64,000 nucleotides of DNA, from the NCBI GenBank assembly GCA_947473305.1, contig CANJCB010000020.1, positions 1 through 64,000 of the forward strand, given 5' to 3'. Origin of the DNA: Rhodospirillales bacterium. GTDB taxonomy: Bacteria; Pseudomonadota; Alphaproteobacteria; ATCC43930; CGMCC-115725. The notes beneath the pieces were generated by a model that was not told the origin of the DNA, did not search any database, and was given only the letters and a program-made list of their open reading frames with translations. A program made the position numbers and the translations under genes. This document shows, in pieces, positions 34,650 to 42,949 of the stretch (position 1 is its first letter; each line of letters begins with the position of its first letter).

Positions 34650-35660
34650 ATGGACGGCGCCGACGAAATCTATTTGATGGATCACCCGGATTCGACCGAG
34701 GAAATCCCGATCATCGACATCGCCCCCTTCCTCGCGGGCGAGCCGGGTGCTGCCGGGCGGATCGGCAAGGAGTTGCGCCATGTCACCGAGACGGTGGGCT
34801 TCTTCTATCTCGCCGGCCATGGGGTTCCGCAGTCCCATATCGACATGATGTTCGCCGAGGCACGGCGCTTCCACGCCCTGCCTCTCGCGGTGAAGGAAGC
34901 GATCCCCCGGGTCGACAACACCGACTATCTCCGCATGAGCGAGGCGCTGACGACGACCGCGAATATCATCGACGGGGCCGCGCCCAATCTCAACGCGGCC
35001 TTCATCTTCAACCGGGAGCGCGCGCCCGACGATCCCGACGCGCTGGCCAGGAAACCTTTCCGGCAGTTCAACAACTGGCCCGAGGGCCTCCCCGGCTTCA
35101 AGGAGAACGTGCTCGATTATCTCTATACGATCGAAGCGCTGGGGCAGCGGATGCTGCCGCTCTGGGCCGCCTCGCTGGACTTGCCCGCCGATTACTTCGC
35201 GCCCTTCTTCAAGAGCCCGCATATCACCATGCGGATCTCCCATTATCCGCATCAGAAGGTGGTGGGAAACCGGCAATACGGGCTGGCACCCCATACCGAT
35301 AATTGCCTGATGACGATCCTGGCCCAGGCCAATGTGCCGGGGCTGGCAGTGCGGATGCCGTCGGGCCATTGGCGGCTCGTGGACATCATTCCCGGCACCT
35401 TCGTCGTCAATACCGGCAACCTCATGGTGCGCTGGACCAACGACCGTTATCTCTCGACCAAGCACCGCGTAATCAACATCTCCGAGACCGATCGCTACGT
35501 CTTCCCGGTCTTCTTCGGCCCGGATCACGACGCGTTGATCGAATGCTTGCCGACCTGCACGGATGCGGCGAACCCGCCCCGGCACAAGGCCATGACCTAT
35601 CTCGATCTGATGATGCAGTATTTCGTCATGAAACAGGCGAAGAGCACCGGCTCGAAATAG
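34650..35660 (+). CDS. Isopenicillin-N-synthase-like Fe(II)/2OG oxygenase
   Basis: 336 residues of the IPNS/DIOX family (ethylene-forming enzyme, gibberellin oxidases, flavone synthases). The N-terminal DIOX_N domain contains IPIIDIAPFL and GFFYLAGHGVP. The C-terminal jelly roll has iron ligands His215 and Asp217 (APHTDNCLMTIL) and His272 (STKHRVINIS). Bacterial members hydroxylate amino acids or small aromatics with 2-oxoglutarate or the substrate itself as co-reductant. It is divergent from the DapA-like gene and convergent with the amidohydrolase, with a 35-base overlap of the 3' ends. Confidence 0.88.
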   Translation: MDGADEIYLMDHPDSTEEIPIIDIAPFLAGEPGAAGRIGKELRHVTETVGFFYLAGHGVPQSHIDMMFAEARRFHALPLAVKEAIPRVDNTDYLRMSEALTTTANIIDGAAPNLNAAFIFNRERAPDDPDALARKPFRQFNNWPEGLPGFKENVLDYLYTIEALGQRMLPLWAASLDLPADYFAPFFKSPHITMRISHYPHQKVVGNRQYGLAPHTDNCLMTILAQANVPGLAVRMPSGHWRLVDIIPGTFVVNTGNLMVRWTNDRYLSTKHRVINISETDRYVFPVFFGPDHDALIECLPTCTDAANPPRHKAMTYLDLMMQYFVMKQAKSTGSK

Positions 35661-36951
35661 CCGCAACGACCCGGTCTCGCGCCTCATCGGCGAGCCTTGC
35701 CACACGAGAAAGATCAACGCCGACGAGCTGGCCATGGCGCTTTCTGATCTTGCCGGCGATGATGACCGTATCGACGCTCGCCGGGCTCATGCTCGTGACC
35801 ACGGCGCCAACCGGATCGTTCATCGGCAGCACGTCGAAGCGATCGGTCCGCAGGAGAATGATATCGGCCTCCTTGCCCGGCGTCAGGGTACCGATGCGGC
35901 TGCCCAGCCGATTGGCGGCGGCGCCCTCGACGGTCGCAAATTCAAGCACGTCCCTTGCGGTCAGGATCTGGCCACCCGATGCGCGGGCATCGGGACGCTG
36001 CAGAGCCAGCACGCAGCGCATCTGGGTAAACATGTCTCCCGGCGCCGAAGTCTCGACATCGATGCTGAGGGACGGCCTTATCCCGAGATCGAGCGCCTTC
36101 TGGACCGGCGGCGTCCCGATCCCCATGGTCAGTTCCACATAGGGCGAGATCGACAGCGCCCCGCCGGTATCGCGGATATAGGCCCATTCGCGATCCGTCA
36201 GATGGCAGCAATGGATATAGGTCGTGTCGGGTTTCATCAGTCCCGCTTCGCCCAGCCTTTCCAAAGCGCCGTCGGCGTGGGTTCCGGCATGGATCGAGAT
36301 GGGCGCCTCGACTTCCCGTGCCGCCTGCCAGACCTCGACCAGCCTTTCGTGCGGACCGCCGACGCTCGCCAGCGCCAGGGTCGTCAGCTGGTCCGCGCTG
36401 GAGAAATGCTCCTTGCGAAGCCGAGGGAGATCGGCCGGATAGCGATGCCGGGGATCGCCCCAGAACTGCCCCGTCGCACTCGCCGGATTGCCAAAAGCGA
36501 AGACCGCGCGGATGCCCGCGTCCGAAAGCGCGGCGATAGCGGCTTCCGTATGGGCAGGCGTGTTCTGGATGCTCGACCAGTCCAGGATATTCGTGATCCC
36601 GCAATCGATGGCGCCGAGCGCGCTCGTCAATGTCGCCGCATAGACGTCCTCGGGCGTGAAGACCGGCCCGAAGGTGCGGCTCACGATTCTGAAATATTTG
36701 GCCAGCGGCGCATCCGGCAGGAGATTGCGCAAGAGGCCCTGCCACATATGCCGGTGGGTATCGACGAAGCCCGGCATGACGATGCAATCGGAAGCGTCGA
36801 TGATCTCGGCATCGGCCGTTTCCAGCCCGGGTCCGACCGCGGCGATCTTGCCGTGCCGCACCAGCACGTCGGCACGCGAAAAATCGCCGATCCGCCGGTC
36901 GAGCGTCAGAACGCAGCCGTTGCGGATCAGGACGGGGCGACTAGCGGCCAT
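35626..36951 (-). CDS. Amidohydrolase (cytosine-deaminase/AtzA-TrzN type)
   Basis: 441 residues. It is a metal-dependent TIM-barrel hydrolase with His66 and His68 (VDTHRHMWQG), further metal or substrate histidines in SIHAGTHAD and TYIHCCHL, and an Asp-containing LSIDVETS segment. This set places it in the subtype III amidohydrolases that deaminate or dechlorinate N-heterocycles such as cytosine, 8-oxoguanine, S-adenosylhomocysteine and triazines. A role in removing amino groups from a cyclic substrate of the island is inferred. Its last 35 bases overlap the 3' end of the IPNS-like gene. Confidence 0.87.
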   Translation of the reverse strand: MAASRPVLIRNGCVLTLDRRIGDFSRADVLVRHGKIAAVGPGLETADAEIIDASDCIVMPGFVDTHRHMWQGLLRNLLPDAPLAKYFRIVSRTFGPVFTPEDVYAATLTSALGAIDCGITNILDWSSIQNTPAHTEAAIAALSDAGIRAVFAFGNPASATGQFWGDPRHRYPADLPRLRKEHFSSADQLTTLALASVGGPHERLVEVWQAAREVEAPISIHAGTHADGALERLGEAGLMKPDTTYIHCCHLTDREWAYIRDTGGALSISPYVELTMGIGTPPVQKALDLGIRPSLSIDVETSAPGDMFTQMRCVLALQRPDARASGGQILTARDVLEFATVEGAAANRLGSRIGTLTPGKEADIILLRTDRFDVLPMNDPVGAVVTSMSPASVDTVIIAGKIRKRHGQLVGVDLSRVARLADEARDRVVAAISSRCSSPVS

Positions 36952-37088
36952 GGGGCTTCATGCTGCTTGGATGTTCCATTGGCTTCATCCTAGCGAAAGG
37001 CGAGCGGCAAGGATATTTGCAGCTTTCAGGGAAAGCGGGCGATGGGTCGCGACCGAAATTACATTATTTTTATGTTTAAATAAGCTAT
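36952..37088. other. AT-rich part of the amidohydrolase-sulfur operon gap
   Basis: The 229-bp gap between the amidohydrolase start and the small leader ORF begins here and becomes notably AT-rich from about 37050 (TTATTTTTATGTTTAAATAAGC). No gene is seen. The amidohydrolase promoter should lie here. The sulfur-operon promoter follows at 37089. Confidence 0.4.
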
Positions 37089-37115
37089 TTGACATTTTTC
37101 ATAGAGTATTATTTA
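37089..37115 (+). promoter_or_regulatory. Sigma-70-like promoter of the sulfite reductase operon
   Basis: A consensus TTGACA at 37089-37094 is followed after 15 bases by TATTTA at 37110-37115, within an AT-rich stretch unusual for this genome. The spacing is short, but the -35 box is perfect. Transcription would start near 37122, just ahead of the hairpin at 37138 and the small ORF at 37181. Confidence 0.45.
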
Positions 37116-37137
37116 CTGCAATCACAGTCTAGCTTTC

Positions 37138-37158
37138 GCCCCTCGCCGGTCGAGGGGC
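37138..37158 (+). promoter_or_regulatory. Leader hairpin before the Cys-ending small ORF
   Basis: GCCCCTCG at 37138-37145 pairs perfectly with CGAGGGGC at 37151-37158 around a five-base loop and is followed by TTTGT. It is terminator-like but with a short U-run, and lies between the probable transcription start and the 52-codon ORF. It could be an attenuator or protein-binding site controlling the sulfur operon (inference). Confidence 0.45.
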
Positions 37159-37180
37159 TTTGTATCTGGAGTGCCCGCTT

Positions 37181-37339
37181 ATGGATTACCGCCCCGCACC
37201 GAAGCAACCCCTCCAGGAGGAGCAGGTTTCTCAGGCGGCTCGCGTTCCGGCAGCCGAAGGCACCCTCGACAGGCAGCCCTCTTCGCCTGGTTCGGACGAG
37301 GATTGCCTGGGCTTTTCCATGTGCGGCATGGCCGGCTGA
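37181..37339 (+). CDS. Putative 52-residue leader peptide ending in Cys codons
   Basis: An ORF of 52 codons with a GGAG ribosome site nine bases before its ATG. The translation is Pro/Gln/Ser-rich (MDYRPAPKQPLQEEQ...) with no hydrophobic segment, and ends DEDCLGFSMCGMAG, giving Cys codons at positions 42 and 48. It stops 23 bases before the DUF2849 gene of the sulfite reductase operon. The position and terminal Cys codons suggest a regulatory leader sensing cysteinyl-tRNA, by analogy with known Cys-rich leader ORFs. A small functional peptide is also possible. I do not recognise the sequence. Confidence 0.45.
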   Translation: MDYRPAPKQPLQEEQVSQAARVPAAEGTLDRQPSSPGSDEDCLGFSMCGMAG

Positions 37340-37362
37340 AGGTTTGAGCGGAAGATCGGTCG

Positions 37363-37689
37363 ATGAGTGCAGCCAAGCGCCCCCCTCTGCCCGTGATCCT
37401 GCTGGCCAACGACCTCCTCGACGGAGAAGTGGTTTTCCGCAGCGACAAGGGATGGAGCCGCGATCCGGGCGAGGCGCTGATCGCCTTCGACGATGAGGCG
37501 GCGGTTGCCCTGGAGCAGGCCGGACAGCGGGCCTATGCAAACAACGAGGTCGTCGAGGTCGCACTTGTCGACGTCAGCCTCACCGGCGACGGCAAGCCCG
37601 TGCCGAACCATTTCCGCGAGCGCTTCAAGGTCAATGGCCCCACGGTCCGGCTGGATCTCGGCAAACAGGCGGTCTACGGGAGACGCTGA
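37363..37689 (+). CDS. DUF2849 family protein of the sulfite reductase operon
   Basis: 108 residues. DUF2849 proteins are small and of unknown function, found in alphaproteobacteria almost always directly before a siroheme sulfite/nitrite reductase gene, as here. Landmarks are PVILLANDLLDGEVVF and DVSLTGDGKPVPNHFRERFK. There is no signal peptide or cysteine. It is encoded three bases before cysI, and such tight linkage suggests a role in assembly or activity of the reductase (inference). An ATG at 37363 with a weak GGAAG ribosome site is used. Confidence 0.85.
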   Translation: MSAAKRPPLPVILLANDLLDGEVVFRSDKGWSRDPGEALIAFDDEAAVALEQAGQRAYANNEVVEVALVDVSLTGDGKPVPNHFRERFKVNGPTVRLDLGKQAVYGRR

Positions 37690-37692
37690 CAC

Positions 37693-39375
37693 ATGTACCG
37701 TTATGACGAATTCGACGAGCGCTTCGTTCGCGAGCGCGTCGAGCAATTCCGTGACGAGGTCGCCCGCCGGCTCGACGGCTCGCTGACCGAGGACGAGTTC
37801 CGGCCCCTGCGGCTGAAGAACGGGCTCTATCTGCAGCTTCACGCCTATATGCTGCGGATCGCCATTCCCTACGGCACCTTGTCCTCCCGCCAATTGCGGC
37901 AATTGGCGCTCATCGCCGACCGTTACGACCGGGGCTATGGCCATTTCACCACGCGGCAAAACATCCAGTTCAACTGGCCGAAGCTGCGCGATGCCCCGGA
38001 CATTTTGGGCCTGCTCGCCGACGTGGAGATGCATTGCATCCAGACCAGCGGCAATTGCATCCGCAACGTGACCGCCGATCACTTCGCGGGCGTCGCGGCG
38101 GATGAGATCGACGATCCCCGCCCGGTCTGCGAATTGATCCGGCAATGGTCCTCGGCCCATCCGGAATTCAGCTATCTCCCCCGCAAGTTCAAGATCGCCG
38201 TGACGGGGGCGCTGCACGACCGCGCGGTGGTCAAGGCCCACGATATCGGCCTTCGGATGGTCCGCGACCGCGAAACCTCGGCCAAGGGCTTCGAGGTCAT
38301 CGTGGGTGGCGGGCTCGGCCGCACGCCCTTCGTCGGCAAGGTCATCCGCGACTTCCTGCCCGAAGACGAGTTGCTCGCCTATCTCGAGGCGATCATGCGG
38401 GTCTATAACCTCGAAGGCCGCCGGGACAACAAGTATAAGGCGCGGGTCAAGATCCTGGTCCATGAGATCGGCGTCGAGGCCTTCCGGGAAAAGGTCGAAG
38501 CGGAATACGCCCGGCTCGACGTCGCCAGCATCAATCCTGATCCGGCGGAGGTCGAGCGCATCGCCGCTTATTTCGCGCCGCCCGCCTATGAGAAGCTCCC
38601 GGCGCAGAGCACCGCGCTCGACGCGGCGATGAAGCTCAATCCGGCCTTCGCCGAATGGGTCGAGATCAACGGCTTCGAACATAAGGCGCCGGGCTATGTC
38701 GCCGTCACCGTCTCCCTCAAGGGGATCGGCGAGGTCCCCGGCGACATGACCTCGGATCAGATGCGCCATTTCGCCGATCTGACCGACCGCTTCTCCCTCG
38801 GCGAGTTGCGCGTCAGCCACAACCAGAACCTGATCCTGCCCGATGTGAAGAAGAAGGATCTCTTCCCCCTCTGGCAGGAGCTTGGAAAGTTCGGCCTGGC
38901 AACCGCCAATGTCGGGCTCATCACCGATATCATCGCCTGCCCGGGCCTCGATTATTGCTCGCTGGCGACCGCCCGCTCCATTCCCATCGCCCAAGCCATC
39001 GCCACGCGCTTTGCCGATCCCGTCCGCCAACGCGACATCGGGCCGCTCAATCTCAATATCTCAGGCTGCATCAACGCCTGCGGCCATCACCACGTCGGCC
39101 ATATCGGCATCCTCGGCCTCGAAAAGCGCGGGCAGGAATCCTACCAGATCACCCTGGGCGGCGATTCGTCGGAGGATGCGGCCATCGGCGACGTGATCGG
39201 ACCCGGCCTGACCGGCGATGCCGTACCCGGCGCGATCGAGCGGTTGGTGGCGATCTATCTTCAGGAGCGTCGTGAAGGCGAGCCCTTCATCGCCACCGTG
39301 AAGCGGATCGGGCAAGCGCCCTTCAAGGCGGCTTTCCAGCATTATGTCGAAGGGTTGCGCGACCATGCTGCTTGA
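37693..39375 (+). CDS. cysI: Siroheme/4Fe-4S sulfite (or nitrite) reductase
   Basis: 560 residues. It has two Nir/Sir ferredoxin-like half domains and siroheme/4Fe-4S folds. The FTTRQNIQFNW segment is typical of the first half. Cluster ligands appear as IACPGLDYC (C-x5-C) and SGCINACGHHHVGH (C-x3-C). The enzyme reduces sulfite to sulfide with six electrons, or nitrite to ammonia in sister enzymes. The gene order with DUF2849, DUF934 and cysG indicates assimilation of sulfite. A ribosome site GGGAGA precedes ATG 37693. The stop overlaps the DUF934 gene by 11 bases. No flavoprotein CysJ or PAPS reductase CysH is encoded beside it, so electrons probably come from ferredoxin. Confidence 0.9.
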   Translation: MYRYDEFDERFVRERVEQFRDEVARRLDGSLTEDEFRPLRLKNGLYLQLHAYMLRIAIPYGTLSSRQLRQLALIADRYDRGYGHFTTRQNIQFNWPKLRDAPDILGLLADVEMHCIQTSGNCIRNVTADHFAGVAADEIDDPRPVCELIRQWSSAHPEFSYLPRKFKIAVTGALHDRAVVKAHDIGLRMVRDRETSAKGFEVIVGGGLGRTPFVGKVIRDFLPEDELLAYLEAIMRVYNLEGRRDNKYKARVKILVHEIGVEAFREKVEAEYARLDVASINPDPAEVERIAAYFAPPAYEKLPAQSTALDAAMKLNPAFAEWVEINGFEHKAPGYVAVTVSLKGIGEVPGDMTSDQMRHFADLTDRFSLGELRVSHNQNLILPDVKKKDLFPLWQELGKFGLATANVGLITDIIACPGLDYCSLATARSIPIAQAIATRFADPVRQRDIGPLNLNISGCINACGHHHVGHIGILGLEKRGQESYQITLGGDSSEDAAIGDVIGPGLTGDAVPGAIERLVAIYLQERREGEPFIATVKRIGQAPFKAAFQHYVEGLRDHAA

Positions 39376-39856
39376 TGCCCGGGGCGCAAAGGACGACGTC
39401 TGGATCAAGCCCGACCAAGTCCCGCAAGTTCAGGCCTCCCACCGGCTCGTGCTCTGGGAGGATTGGGCGGGCGACAGCGAGGTCCAGGCTCGCGGCGTCG
39501 AAATCCCCAATACGCTGAAGATCGGCGACCTTCTTCCCATCCTTGGACAGGTCGAATTGATTGCGATCCGTTTCGGCGCTTTCACCGACGGCCGGGGCTT
39601 CAGCCTCGCGCGGCTGATCCGGGCGCAAGGCTACAAGGGGACTTTGCGCGCCACGGGGCCTTTGATCCCCGACCAGTTCGCCTATGCGCTGCGCTGCGGC
39701 TTCGACGAGGTCGAGGTGCCGGATGCGAACGCCAACCGCCAGCCACCGGACGTCTGGCTGCGGGCGGCGCGTTCGTTCAGCGCGAATTACCAAAGAGGCT
39801 ACGCCACGGGCGTGAATATCCTCGACCAGCGACGGCTCGCCCGGGCCGGGAGATAG
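39365..39856 (+). CDS. DUF934 family protein of the sulfite reductase operon
   Basis: 163 residues from the ATG at 39365, which overlaps the end of cysI by 11 bases; an upstream ATG at 39344 exists. DUF934 proteins accompany CysI/CysH in proteobacteria and are thought to take part in sulfite or sulfate reduction, perhaps as an electron or binding partner; the biochemistry is unsettled. Landmarks are the central RFGAFTDGRGFSLARLIRAQGY block and QFAYALRCGFDEVEV, and the protein ends with a basic tail. Co-translation with cysI is implied by the overlap. Confidence 0.87.
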   Translation: MLLDARGAKDDVWIKPDQVPQVQASHRLVLWEDWAGDSEVQARGVEIPNTLKIGDLLPILGQVELIAIRFGAFTDGRGFSLARLIRAQGYKGTLRATGPLIPDQFAYALRCGFDEVEVPDANANRQPPDVWLRAARSFSANYQRGYATGVNILDQRRLARAGR

Positions 39857-39865
39857 GCCCCCACA

Positions 39866-41323
39866 ATGGAGCGCCATCCCCAGGAACAGGCTTCGAGCCG
39901 GATTGCACCGCTCTCCCGGCTGCCGGTTTTCTTCAAGATCGCCGGACAGAAAGCCGTCCTCTCGGGCGACAGCGAAGCCGCGCTGTGGAAAGCGGAGCTT
40001 CTGCTGGCCGCCGGTGCGGATCTGGATGTTTTCGCGGGTGGCGTCACCGGTCGCTATGACGCTCTTGGGGCAAAGGTCGGCGCCGGAAGGCTGACGGTAC
40101 ATCCCCGGGCCTGGCAAGCGGGTGACTTCGAGGACGCGGTTCTCGCCATCGCCGATGCCGCGACCGAAGACGAGGCTGCGGCCTTTGCAGCAGCCGCCAA
40201 AGCGGCGGGTGCGGCGGTCAACATCATCGACAAACCGGCCCATGGCACGGTCGAATTCGGCTCCATCGTCAATCGCTCCCCTCTCCTGGTGGCAATTTCC
40301 ACCAGCGGCGGCGCGCCGGTCTTCGGCCAGGCCATCCGCGCCCGCATCGAAGCGCTGCTGCCGAGCGGCCTCAAGGAATGGGCCGAGGCCGCCCGCGAAT
40401 GGCGGCCCTCGGTGCGAAAAGCGGATCTCTCGCCCGGACGGAAGAGGCGGTTCTGGGAACGCTTCGCCGCGCTGGCGCTGAGCCAATCCCAACGTCTACC
40501 CGAACCCTCCGATCGCACAAAGCTTTTCGGGGAAGTCGACCGGCTCTCGACGGCAAGCGGCGGCAACGGGCGGGTCAGCCTCGTCGGCGCGGGGCCGGGC
40601 GACCCCGAGCTCCTGACCCTGAAGGCGATCCGGGCGCTGCAAAGCGCCGATGTGATCCTCTACGACGATCTCGTCTCGCCGGAAGTCCTCGACATGGCGC
40701 GCCGCGAGGCGCGGCGGATCTGCGTCGGCAAGCAAGGCCACCGGCCCTCCTGTTCCCAGGAGGAGATCAACCGCATGATCGTGCGGCTATCGGTGGAAGG
40801 CCGGCACGTGGTCCGCCTCAAGGGGGGCGATCCCGGCATCTTCGGCCGGGCGACCGAGGAAATCGACGCCTGCCGCAAAGCGGGCGTCCCGGTCGTTCTC
40901 ATTCCAGGCATCACCGCCGCACAGGGAGCGGCGAGCGCCCTGGGAATTTCGCTCACCGAGCGCAACCACGCCCGCCGCGTCCAATTCATCACCGGGCATT
41001 CCGCCAAGGGCGCCCTGCCCGACGATATCCATTGGGCCTCGCTCAAGGATCCGTCCACGACGACGGCCATCTATATGCCGCGCAAGACCCTTGTCGATCT
41101 GCGGGATCGCGGGCTGGCGGCCGGCCTCGATCCCGAGATGCCAGCCCTGGCCATCGCCTCGGTCAGTCGCAGCGAACAGGCCTATGTCGCCGGCACCCTG
41201 GCGAGCCTGCCGCATCAGATCCACGCACTCGACGATGCTGGTCCTCTGCTTGTCCTGCTCGGCGACGTGGTCCGTGACTACGCCCTCGGCTCGGCGAAAG
41301 CCGAAACCCGCCAGGCGGGCTGA
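39866..41323 (+). CDS. cysG: Siroheme synthase (multifunctional CysG)
   Basis: 485 residues, the fusion size. The N-terminal half (about 1-215) is a precorrin-2 dehydrogenase/sirohydrochlorin ferrochelatase domain with AISTSGGAPVFGQAIRARIE. The C-terminal half is the SAM-dependent uroporphyrinogen-III methyltransferase with VSLVGAGPGDPELLTLKAI, YDDLVSPEVL and RLKGGDPGIFGRATEE. It makes siroheme from uroporphyrinogen III, supplying the cofactor of the CysI-like reductase upstream. The nucleotide-binding loop of the first domain reads LSGDSEAALWKAELLL, without the usual GGG, so the NAD site is slightly divergent. It closes the operon ten bases after the DUF934 gene. Confidence 0.92.
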   Translation: MERHPQEQASSRIAPLSRLPVFFKIAGQKAVLSGDSEAALWKAELLLAAGADLDVFAGGVTGRYDALGAKVGAGRLTVHPRAWQAGDFEDAVLAIADAATEDEAAAFAAAAKAAGAAVNIIDKPAHGTVEFGSIVNRSPLLVAISTSGGAPVFGQAIRARIEALLPSGLKEWAEAAREWRPSVRKADLSPGRKRRFWERFAALALSQSQRLPEPSDRTKLFGEVDRLSTASGGNGRVSLVGAGPGDPELLTLKAIRALQSADVILYDDLVSPEVLDMARREARRICVGKQGHRPSCSQEEINRMIVRLSVEGRHVVRLKGGDPGIFGRATEEIDACRKAGVPVVLIPGITAAQGAASALGISLTERNHARRVQFITGHSAKGALPDDIHWASLKDPSTTTAIYMPRKTLVDLRDRGLAAGLDPEMPALAIASVSRSEQAYVAGTLASLPHQIHALDDAGPLLVLLGDVVRDYALGSAKAETRQAG

Positions 41324-41332
41324 CCGCTCCTC

Positions 41333-42658
41333 TCAAGAAAAAAAGCGGTTCGCCGGCCTCGGCAGGCCCAGGTTTTCCCGCAGGGTCTTTCCCTCGTACT
41401 CGCAGCGGAAGATGTCCCGCCGCTGGAGTTCCGGCACGACACGATCGACGAACTCGTCGAGCCCGCCGGGCACATAGGGAAACATCACGTTGAACCCGTC
41501 GCAGGCATCACTGAGGAGCCATTCCTCCATCTGATCCGCGATGGTCTGGGGCGTTCCGACCAGGGCGTGGCCCCCGTAGCTGCCCGCGATCTGGGCAAGC
41601 TGGCGGACCGTCAGGTTCTCCGATTGCGCCAGATCCACCATCTTCTGGCGGCTCGTCTTGCTCGCGTTGCTTTCCGGAATTTCGGGAAGCGGGCCGTCGA
41701 GATCGAAGCCCGAGGCGTCATGCCCCAGCGCGATCGAAAGCGAGGCGAGGCCGCTGTCGGGATGGACGAGGCTGTCGAGATGAGCGCGCTTCTTCCGCGC
41801 CTCGTCCACCGTGTCGCCGACCACCACGAGCGCTCCCGGCATGACCTTCAGATGGTCGCGGGACCGGCCGAGCTTCTCCATCCGTCCCTTGATATCGGCA
41901 TAGAAACGCTGGGCGCCCGCAAGGCTGTTGCCCGTGGCGAAAATGACCTCGGCGGTTTCGGCGGCAAGCTGCCTCCCCGACTCCGAAGCTCCCGCCTGGA
42001 CGATGACGGGCCAGCCCTGGATCGGCCGCGCCACGTTGAGCGGCCCCCGGACCGACAGGAATTCGCCCTTGTGGTCGAGCACATGCAGCTTGTCCGGATC
42101 GAAGAAGACGCCGCTTTCCTGGTCCCGGACAAAGGCGTCGTCGGCCCAGCTGTCCCAGAGCCCGGTCACCACATCGAAGAATTCCCGCGCCCGGCGATAG
42201 CGCTCCCCATGCTCCATATGCTCCTCGAGCCCGAAATTGAGCGCGGCGTCGGGATTGGAGGTCGTCACCACGTTCCAGCCCGCCCGCCCGCCGCTGATAT
42301 GGTCGAGCGAGGCGAATTTCCGGGCGACATGATAAGGCTCGTTGAAGGTCGTCGAGGCGGTCGCAGCAAGCCCGATATGCTCAGTGACAGCGGCGAGCGC
42401 GGGCAGCAGGGTCAAGGGATCGAAGGAAGTGACCGTGGCGCTGCGCTTCAAGGCAGCCATCGGCATATTGAGCACGGCCAGATGGTCGGCCATGAAGAAC
42501 ATGTCGAACTTTCCCGCTTCCAGCTTCTGGGTGAAGCGCTTGATCTGCTGGAAGTTGAAATTGGCGTCGGGAGCCGCACCCGGATAGCGCCACCAGGCGG
42601 TATGGATGCCGACCGGACGCATGAAAGCACCCAACTTCAGACGACGCGGCTCCGTCAT
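41333..42658 (-). CDS. LLM-class flavin-dependent monooxygenase (NtaA/SnaA/DszA type)
   Basis: 441 residues from the ATG at 42658 (AGGAGC upstream). Family landmarks are the opening LKLGAFMRPVGIHTAWWRYP, FDMFFMADHLAVLN, TASTTFNEPYHVARKFASLDHISGGRAGWNVVT (landmark stretch), and PVIVQAGASESGRQLAA. It closely parallels the protein at 15639-16982. Such FMNH2-dependent enzymes open C-S or C-N bonds in sulfones, sulfonates or aminopolycarboxylates. It is convergent with, and nine bases from, the cysG end of the sulfite reductase operon. It may free sulfite for that operon (inference). A flavin reductase is not nearby. Confidence 0.9.
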   Translation of the reverse strand: MTEPRRLKLGAFMRPVGIHTAWWRYPGAAPDANFNFQQIKRFTQKLEAGKFDMFFMADHLAVLNMPMAALKRSATVTSFDPLTLLPALAAVTEHIGLAATASTTFNEPYHVARKFASLDHISGGRAGWNVVTTSNPDAALNFGLEEHMEHGERYRRAREFFDVVTGLWDSWADDAFVRDQESGVFFDPDKLHVLDHKGEFLSVRGPLNVARPIQGWPVIVQAGASESGRQLAAETAEVIFATGNSLAGAQRFYADIKGRMEKLGRSRDHLKVMPGALVVVGDTVDEARKKRAHLDSLVHPDSGLASLSIALGHDASGFDLDGPLPEIPESNASKTSRQKMVDLAQSENLTVRQLAQIAGSYGGHALVGTPQTIADQMEEWLLSDACDGFNVMFPYVPGGLDEFVDRVVPELQRRDIFRCEYEGKTLRENLGLPRPANRFFS

Positions 42659-42949
42659 GTTCGCTCCTTTATCATCTGGATCGATCCTAGCCCAGCTCGG
42701 GGGCGGCGCAGAAGAGTTACAGCGTTGCCCCAGCCATGCGCAGGTCACTATCTTTCTGAAAACTAAAGCCGGAGGACCGATCCTTCGCTAAAAGAGATGG
42801 CGCATCGACGCCGCCTTCTTAAGGCTGTCGTGCCTAAGGGTAATCGACGATATCGCCGCCCTTCTATACATCGGGGGCGATGATCGCGGCCTTCGCTTCC
42901 CGCCTCCGGGCGCCGACGTTCCGTCTCACCCGCTGAGAGGGACATCGTC
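42659..42949. other. 291-bp gap between LLM gene and signalling locus
   Basis: A divergent region that should contain promoters for the LLM monooxygenase (minus) and the winged-helix-like gene (plus). A partial dyad, ATCGCC..GGCGAT, occurs around 42851-42880. No gene or strong repeat was seen. Confidence 0.35.

Follow-up and report, generated by a model that had tools for sequence, protein, structure and literature searches.

Candidate leader peptides with a conserved C-terminus ahead of two sulfur operons in a Rhodospirillales bacterium

The DNA analysed here (the window) is a stretch of 64,000 nucleotides from a Rhodospirillales bacterium, and it carries on its plus strand a sulfur operon in the order leader ORF, DUF2849, cysI-like, DUF934 and cysG. 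The first structural gene encodes a DUF2849 protein (37363-37689; PF11011, E 6.9e-21) and is preceded by a GGAAG at 37350-37354. It is followed by a nitrite/sulfite reductase hemoprotein gene (cysI-like, 37693-39375), the product of which matches several nitrite/sulfite reductase models, all of them below the curated cut-offs; orthologs of the gene occur in 18 genomes related at the level of the order, and homologs on plasmids are annotated as nitrite/sulfite reductase. A DUF934 gene (39344-39856; PF06073, E 1.2e-25) precedes the last gene of the operon, the siroheme synthase gene cysG (39866-41323; NF007922, above the curated cut-off). At the closest CysG loci (L100-L111, 44-52% identity), neither cysI nor DUF2849 is present in the flanks searched, whereas at cysG-DUF2849-cysI loci elsewhere CysG is only 37-41% identical to that of the window; this cysG may therefore be a replacement that came from a different gene setting. 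Convergent with the operon, on the minus strand, lies a gene for an NtaA/DmoA-family FMN monooxygenase (41333-42748), which perhaps has a role on organic sulfur compounds.

The leader ORF, matched by a paralog in the same genome, comprises 52 codons plus a TGA (37181-37339, plus strand). Its GGAG Shine-Dalgarno (SD) sequence (37168-37171) lies 9 nt before the ATG, inside the TGGAGTGCC common to both leaders, and its stop is 23 nt from the start of DUF2849. The product ends DEDCLGFSMCGMAG, with the codons of the conserved C-terminal peptide LGFSMCGMAG, the same in both copies, at 37307-37336. The original prediction had described this ORF, with a proper ribosome site, this terminal sequence and the 23-nt distance, and its coordinates are correct. 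The product matches no Pfam or NCBIfam family up to E 1, and a search with the covariance models of Rfam 15 gave no match in the leader, the sole hit being a chance one elsewhere (37825-37863, minus strand), below the gathering score.

Upstream of the ORF, the predicted perfect eight-pair hairpin is found at 37138-37158 (-15 kcal/mol, z -3.4 in folding against shuffles), and together with the TTT behind it (37138-37161, plus strand) it is terminator-like and has a counterpart in the paralog. Such a hairpin alone is not rare, as perfect 8-bp hairpins occur at 20 distinct places (24 entries) in the window. It is the sole terminator-like site in 36600-37800 (1 versus 0.8 ± 1.0 expected), where it precedes the leader ORF, and it cannot be the terminator of the upstream gene (35626-36951) since that gene is divergent. 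The TTGACA of the original prediction is likewise in place (37089-37094), as part of a TTTGACATT...GTATTAT box (37088-37112, plus strand) that we regard as a candidate promoter or regulator site. Its earlier label as a promoter is retained to the extent that this -35-like box is common to the cysI leader and the paralog leader, but a standard -10 is lacking, and the scan of 36600-37800 for sigma-70-type promoters with 16-18 nt spacing found none versus 0.4 expected. Further upstream, an ACAT-N7-ATGT inverted repeat (37061-37075, plus strand) is a candidate operator with a counterpart in the second leader (L002, 1335-1349), although alone it is a weak signal (1 match in the window versus 0.26 expected by chance). 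An assignment of this repeat to the LysR type (T-N11-A) was dropped, because its symmetric bases do not fit.

When the genome of the window was searched for relatives of the 52-aa product, a second copy turned up at G000:C43 (E 1.6e-4); the remaining three hits (E 0.26 or worse) are noise. The second leader ORF encodes 54 aa that are 42% identical to the cysI leader and also ends LGFSMCGMAG-stop; its product has no Pfam family up to E 1 and no NCBIfam family up to E 0.001. It is separated by 77 nt from a gene whose product scores above the NCBIfam cut-offs for substrate-binding proteins of sulfate ABC transporters. Both leaders have the same order of parts, i.e., ACAT-N7-ATGT, TTTGACATT...GTATTAT, a hairpin with a T run, TGGAGTGCC, ATGGATT, and an ORF ending LGFSMCGMAG-stop. 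The distance from ACAT-N7-ATGT to TTGACA is nearly equal in the two, and the hairpin with its T run ends 19-22 nt 5' of the ATG in both. The hairpin sequences are unlike, only presence and place being kept, and the paralog hairpin is the stronger terminator-like one (seven T versus TTT at the cysI leader). The pattern TTTGACATT-N6to9-GTATTAT has exactly two matches genome-wide, both at the two leaders (reversed-pattern control, 0), and the C-terminal pattern with 3 mismatches allowed also occurs at two places, again both leaders (reversed control, 1). Each part alone could be due to chance, but the same parts in the same order precede a second sulfur gene, which makes chance implausible for the whole.

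The sulfate-binding-protein gene behind the second leader gives way after approximately 236 codons to a repeat (L002, 2451-2605, the end of G000:C43), of which copies of at least 96 nt are present at 15 places in the genome, often where a contig ends. The gene is thus interrupted either by a mobile element or by a break in the assembly; a genome search for its lost C-terminal part, run with no positive control, did not find it. On the 5' side of the leader, a family-5 solute-binding-protein gene (Pfam SBP_bac_5) contains an in-frame TGA (L002, 149-151) and looks as if it were a pseudogene.

Comparison of the two copies shows that conservation is concentrated in the C-terminus of the peptide. 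Over the last 11 codons (33 nt) there are five differences, all third-position and all silent, and of 400,000 simulated trials with five random substitutions each, 78 gave silent changes only; this shows selection on the C-terminal peptide, in a comparison of two sequences. An N-terminal block, MD[YF]...PK.PL.E, is also kept but more weakly, and the middles of the peptides have diverged, with an indel. There are two Cys codons among the 52 of the cysI leader and three among the 54 of the second leader, without any run and with one in common, which in each copy precedes the stop by five codons and has a Met codon on either side. The Cys of DEDC in the cysI leader is Pro in the paralog. On sequence grounds, the pattern is the one expected of an ORF that is translated and constrained at its C-terminal end, which fits a cis-acting nascent peptide and a small protein acting in trans alike.

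Outside this genome, none of our searches returned a convincing relative. In the 43 genomes of the order, among which there is no other species of the genus of the window, the leader profile matched the own genome only, apart from weak hits at E 0.019 and E 0.070, both of which contain an internal stop. Among 385 alphaproteobacterial genomes the leader pattern was present in one, and the profile had matches in four, of which three were foreign and weak (E 0.003 to 0.011). Weak profile hits at L043 and L045 were rejected as chance for want of the motif, and so was the hit at L044, where GFSMRGM follows an in-frame stop and the frame continues. A protein scan across 84,980 species gave no confirmed relative, with a tblastn that may be too strict for 52 aa, and a scan of the same species with the exact motif returned six matches, none of them a leader. 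All six were rejected, as none ends MAG-stop and all overlap longer frames; L047 reads FSMCGMAG, but its 21-codon frame extends beyond it. The motif scan required F, MCGM and [AG]G, accepted S, T, C, R or W at position 2, and covered contigs of at least 3,000 bases, so that it misses relatives with other letters and may exclude the genome of the window itself or very near ones. A search of plasmids gave one chance match, in a transposase (E 1).

Orthologous operons were also screened, and among the short ORFs listed upstream of CysI, sulfate-binding-protein and CysG homologs at 83 loci none ended in the motif. The CysI loci came from 16 of the 18 order relatives with a match (G021 and G034 being left out), the screen starting from cysI itself in five of the 16 and from a guessed cysG start in one. 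The sulfate-binding-protein loci were 11 from order relatives and 27 from the class (with three earlier ones, 30 loci from 61 matching genomes), and the cysG loci were 29, from 82 genomes with a match, with only late-Cys ORFs listed. The ORFs considered in these screens had a crudely defined SD and lay no more than 330 to 450 nt upstream. Lack of conservation had been named among the points that would refute the proposed control, and this holds by half: the ORF has no homolog in the other genomes searched, yet comparison with its paralog reveals selection. The best reading of the distribution is a two-member, lineage-bound family of sulfur-operon leaders with a conserved C-terminus. In two relatives belonging to one genus (loci L037 and L039), the sulfate-binding-protein gene is preceded by TTGACAACGGAGGTTCCTCCGTTAT with a perfect palindrome, AACGGAGGTTCCTCCGTT, which from its symmetry is likely a repressor operator; sulfur control would therefore differ within the family.

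Four other explanations were weighed against a leader peptide. In the first, the ORF encodes a small protein that acts in trans in sulfur metabolism, with conserved end motifs on a disordered chain. Both ends are kept (MD[YF]...PK.PL.E and LGFSMCGMAG), the lengths are similar at 52 and 54 aa, and the hairpin precedes the ORF, which could hence simply head each operon. Against this stand the lack of any family match or homolog elsewhere and the unconserved middle with its indel, so that we regard such a protein as unlikely, though a serious contender.

The second explanation, classical cysteine attenuation, in which a shortage of Cys-tRNA would halt the ribosome at the Cys codon and so increase expression of the operon, is close to the cysteine-sensing translation control that the original prediction had proposed. 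A short ORF lies directly ahead of a sulfur operon at both loci, both operons serve sulfur assimilation, and the position of the common Cys codon between Met codons near the stop is the same in the two copies. Moreover, UUUUCC just 5' of this codon can pair with the DUF2849 SD GGAAGA (duplex -3.9 kcal/mol), and UUUUCG in the paralog with CGGAGA (-2.5 kcal/mol). Neither copy has a run of Cys codons, however, and eight other residues of the block are as conserved as the single common Cys. No terminator or antiterminator overlaps or follows the ORF in 36600-37800, and a stalled ribosome did not unmask the SD in either leader in a crude in-silico test: with a ribosome masked at the Cys codon, the DUF2849 SD was unpaired at 0.002 versus 0.05 unmasked, and the SD of the sulfate-binding-protein gene at 0.33 without versus 0.31 with the mask. 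Masking at the stop codon gave 0.26, but that mask covers the first base of the measured SD, so that this value says nothing about SD release. The pairing was therefore rejected as a switch on this test. What is left of the proposed control is an apparent leader ORF with a selected C-terminus; since ten residues are kept while the codons change silently, it is probably the peptide and not a Cys-codon run that matters, and we consider cysteine attenuation doubtful.

Attenuation of transcription at the hairpin before the ORF, in which a premature terminator would be passed when sulfur is needed and the ORF would have no part in the control, is very improbable: a terminator-like hairpin with a T run is equally placed in both leaders and the paralog terminator competes with an alternative fold, but at the cysI leader the hairpin is followed by TTT only and little space is left upstream for an antiterminator, and selection on the C-terminal peptide is left unexplained. 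A chance ORF, with a similarity that is left over from the duplication of an upstream region and not under selection, agrees with there being two copies only, in one genome, but is scarcely credible given diverged middles next to ten identical last residues with silent changes only.

We therefore return to the leader peptide, and consider the chances about even that the ORF is a cis-acting nascent regulatory peptide, one of two paralogs over sulfite reductase and sulfate uptake. Sulfur control is likely, because two sulfur operons have a common upstream element, and an effect of the nascent chain is likelier than the counting of Cys codons, because only one Cys is common and conservation is just as strict at the neighbouring F, S, M, G, M, A and G. 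The divergent middles and the absence of Pfam and NCBIfam matches also fit a leader more than an enzyme. In the proposed scheme, the common upstream element would start transcription, the ribosome would translate the leader ORF, and at LGFSMCGMAG-stop the nascent C-terminus would tie elongation or termination to sulfur status. The resulting delay would set the output of the operon via translational coupling across the 23-nt gap, RNA turnover, or termination, possibly by Rho. Several observations count against the leader reading, namely the lack of homologs in the other genomes searched, which leaves only two comparable sequences, the unequal gap to the next gene (23 versus 77 nt), and a leader folding no better than shuffles, with an SD not freed by masking. 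The 312-nt cysI leader is no more stable than its shuffles (z +1.45), and the stretch from the end of the leader to DUF2849 is less stable than shuffles (z +1.76); the region after the paralog ORF folds better (z -2.66).

Going further, we tentatively raise the possibility, short of an expectation, that the ORF is a new sulfur-sensing arrest peptide. LGFSMCGMAG would stall at or near its own stop on a sulfur metabolite, MD[YF]...PK.PL.E would bind a partner that tunes the stall, and the pair would co-ordinate sulfate uptake and sulfite reduction. At the stall, the N-terminal block, approximately 40 residues from the C-terminus, would be just leaving the exit tunnel. As in arrest peptides, the C-terminal peptide is conserved with synonymous codon change, in a comparison of two sequences; the conserved N-terminal residues count against a pure C-terminal stall, which does not need them. 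If true, two sulfur operons of an alphaproteobacterium would have in common a peptide-based switch that depends on a peptide motif rather than on consecutive Cys codons, and the ten residues would be a short, precise and cheap target for studies of nascent-peptide sulfur sensing. Short, lineage-bound leader peptides are easily missed in annotation, and paralogs within one genome are a useful route to them when relatives lack them.

Small proteins coded beside sulfate uptake genes have a parallel in the OscA-type proteins (DUF2292), which adjoin sulfate transport genes in pseudomonads. The likeness ends with the location, as neither leader here has a Pfam match. In agreement with the original prediction, for which no described alphaproteobacterial example of this form was known, we found no alphaproteobacterial cysteine leader of such form before sulfite reductase in the open-licence literature, and the accessible main text on small proteins of Sinorhizobium meliloti (PMC10117765) does not contain cysteine, sulfate or sulfite. 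The metL leader of Streptomyces lividans has 29 aa with Cys and Met mixed near the end and precedes a methionine uptake operon (PMC8079986, as excerpted); by its description it is set apart by its leaderless transcript, other phylum and different peptide.

C-terminal arrest peptides, including ApdP of Alphaproteobacteria, are all tied to protein localisation in the available portion of PMC10987492. Like SecM and ApdP, the present leader is an upstream ORF with a C-terminus conserved in homologs, and some peptides of that type also end at the stop codon. As described there, such peptides monitor localisation, have a signal or membrane segment at the N-terminus and carry RAPP-like motifs or others, whereas the leader here is soluble-looking, ends MCGMAG and precedes sulfur genes. 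Closest in setting are leader peptides of Actinobacteria that precede cys operons and a cbs gene and have their Cys codons in runs close to the stop, for which the sections of PMC1262725 at hand report no terminator and suggest Rho; cysteine-responsive short ORFs in mycobacteria are cited from Canestrari 2020 in PMC9094748. As far as these partial texts go, both types agree with our case, the actinobacterial leaders in a short ORF before sulfur assimilation genes with a Cys codon near its stop, and the mycobacterial ones in several loci per genome, as here two. The mycobacterial ORFs are leaderless by the title cited, whereas a ribosome site is present here, and in place of the actinobacterial Cys runs our leaders have one common Cys codon within a conserved ten-residue peptide.
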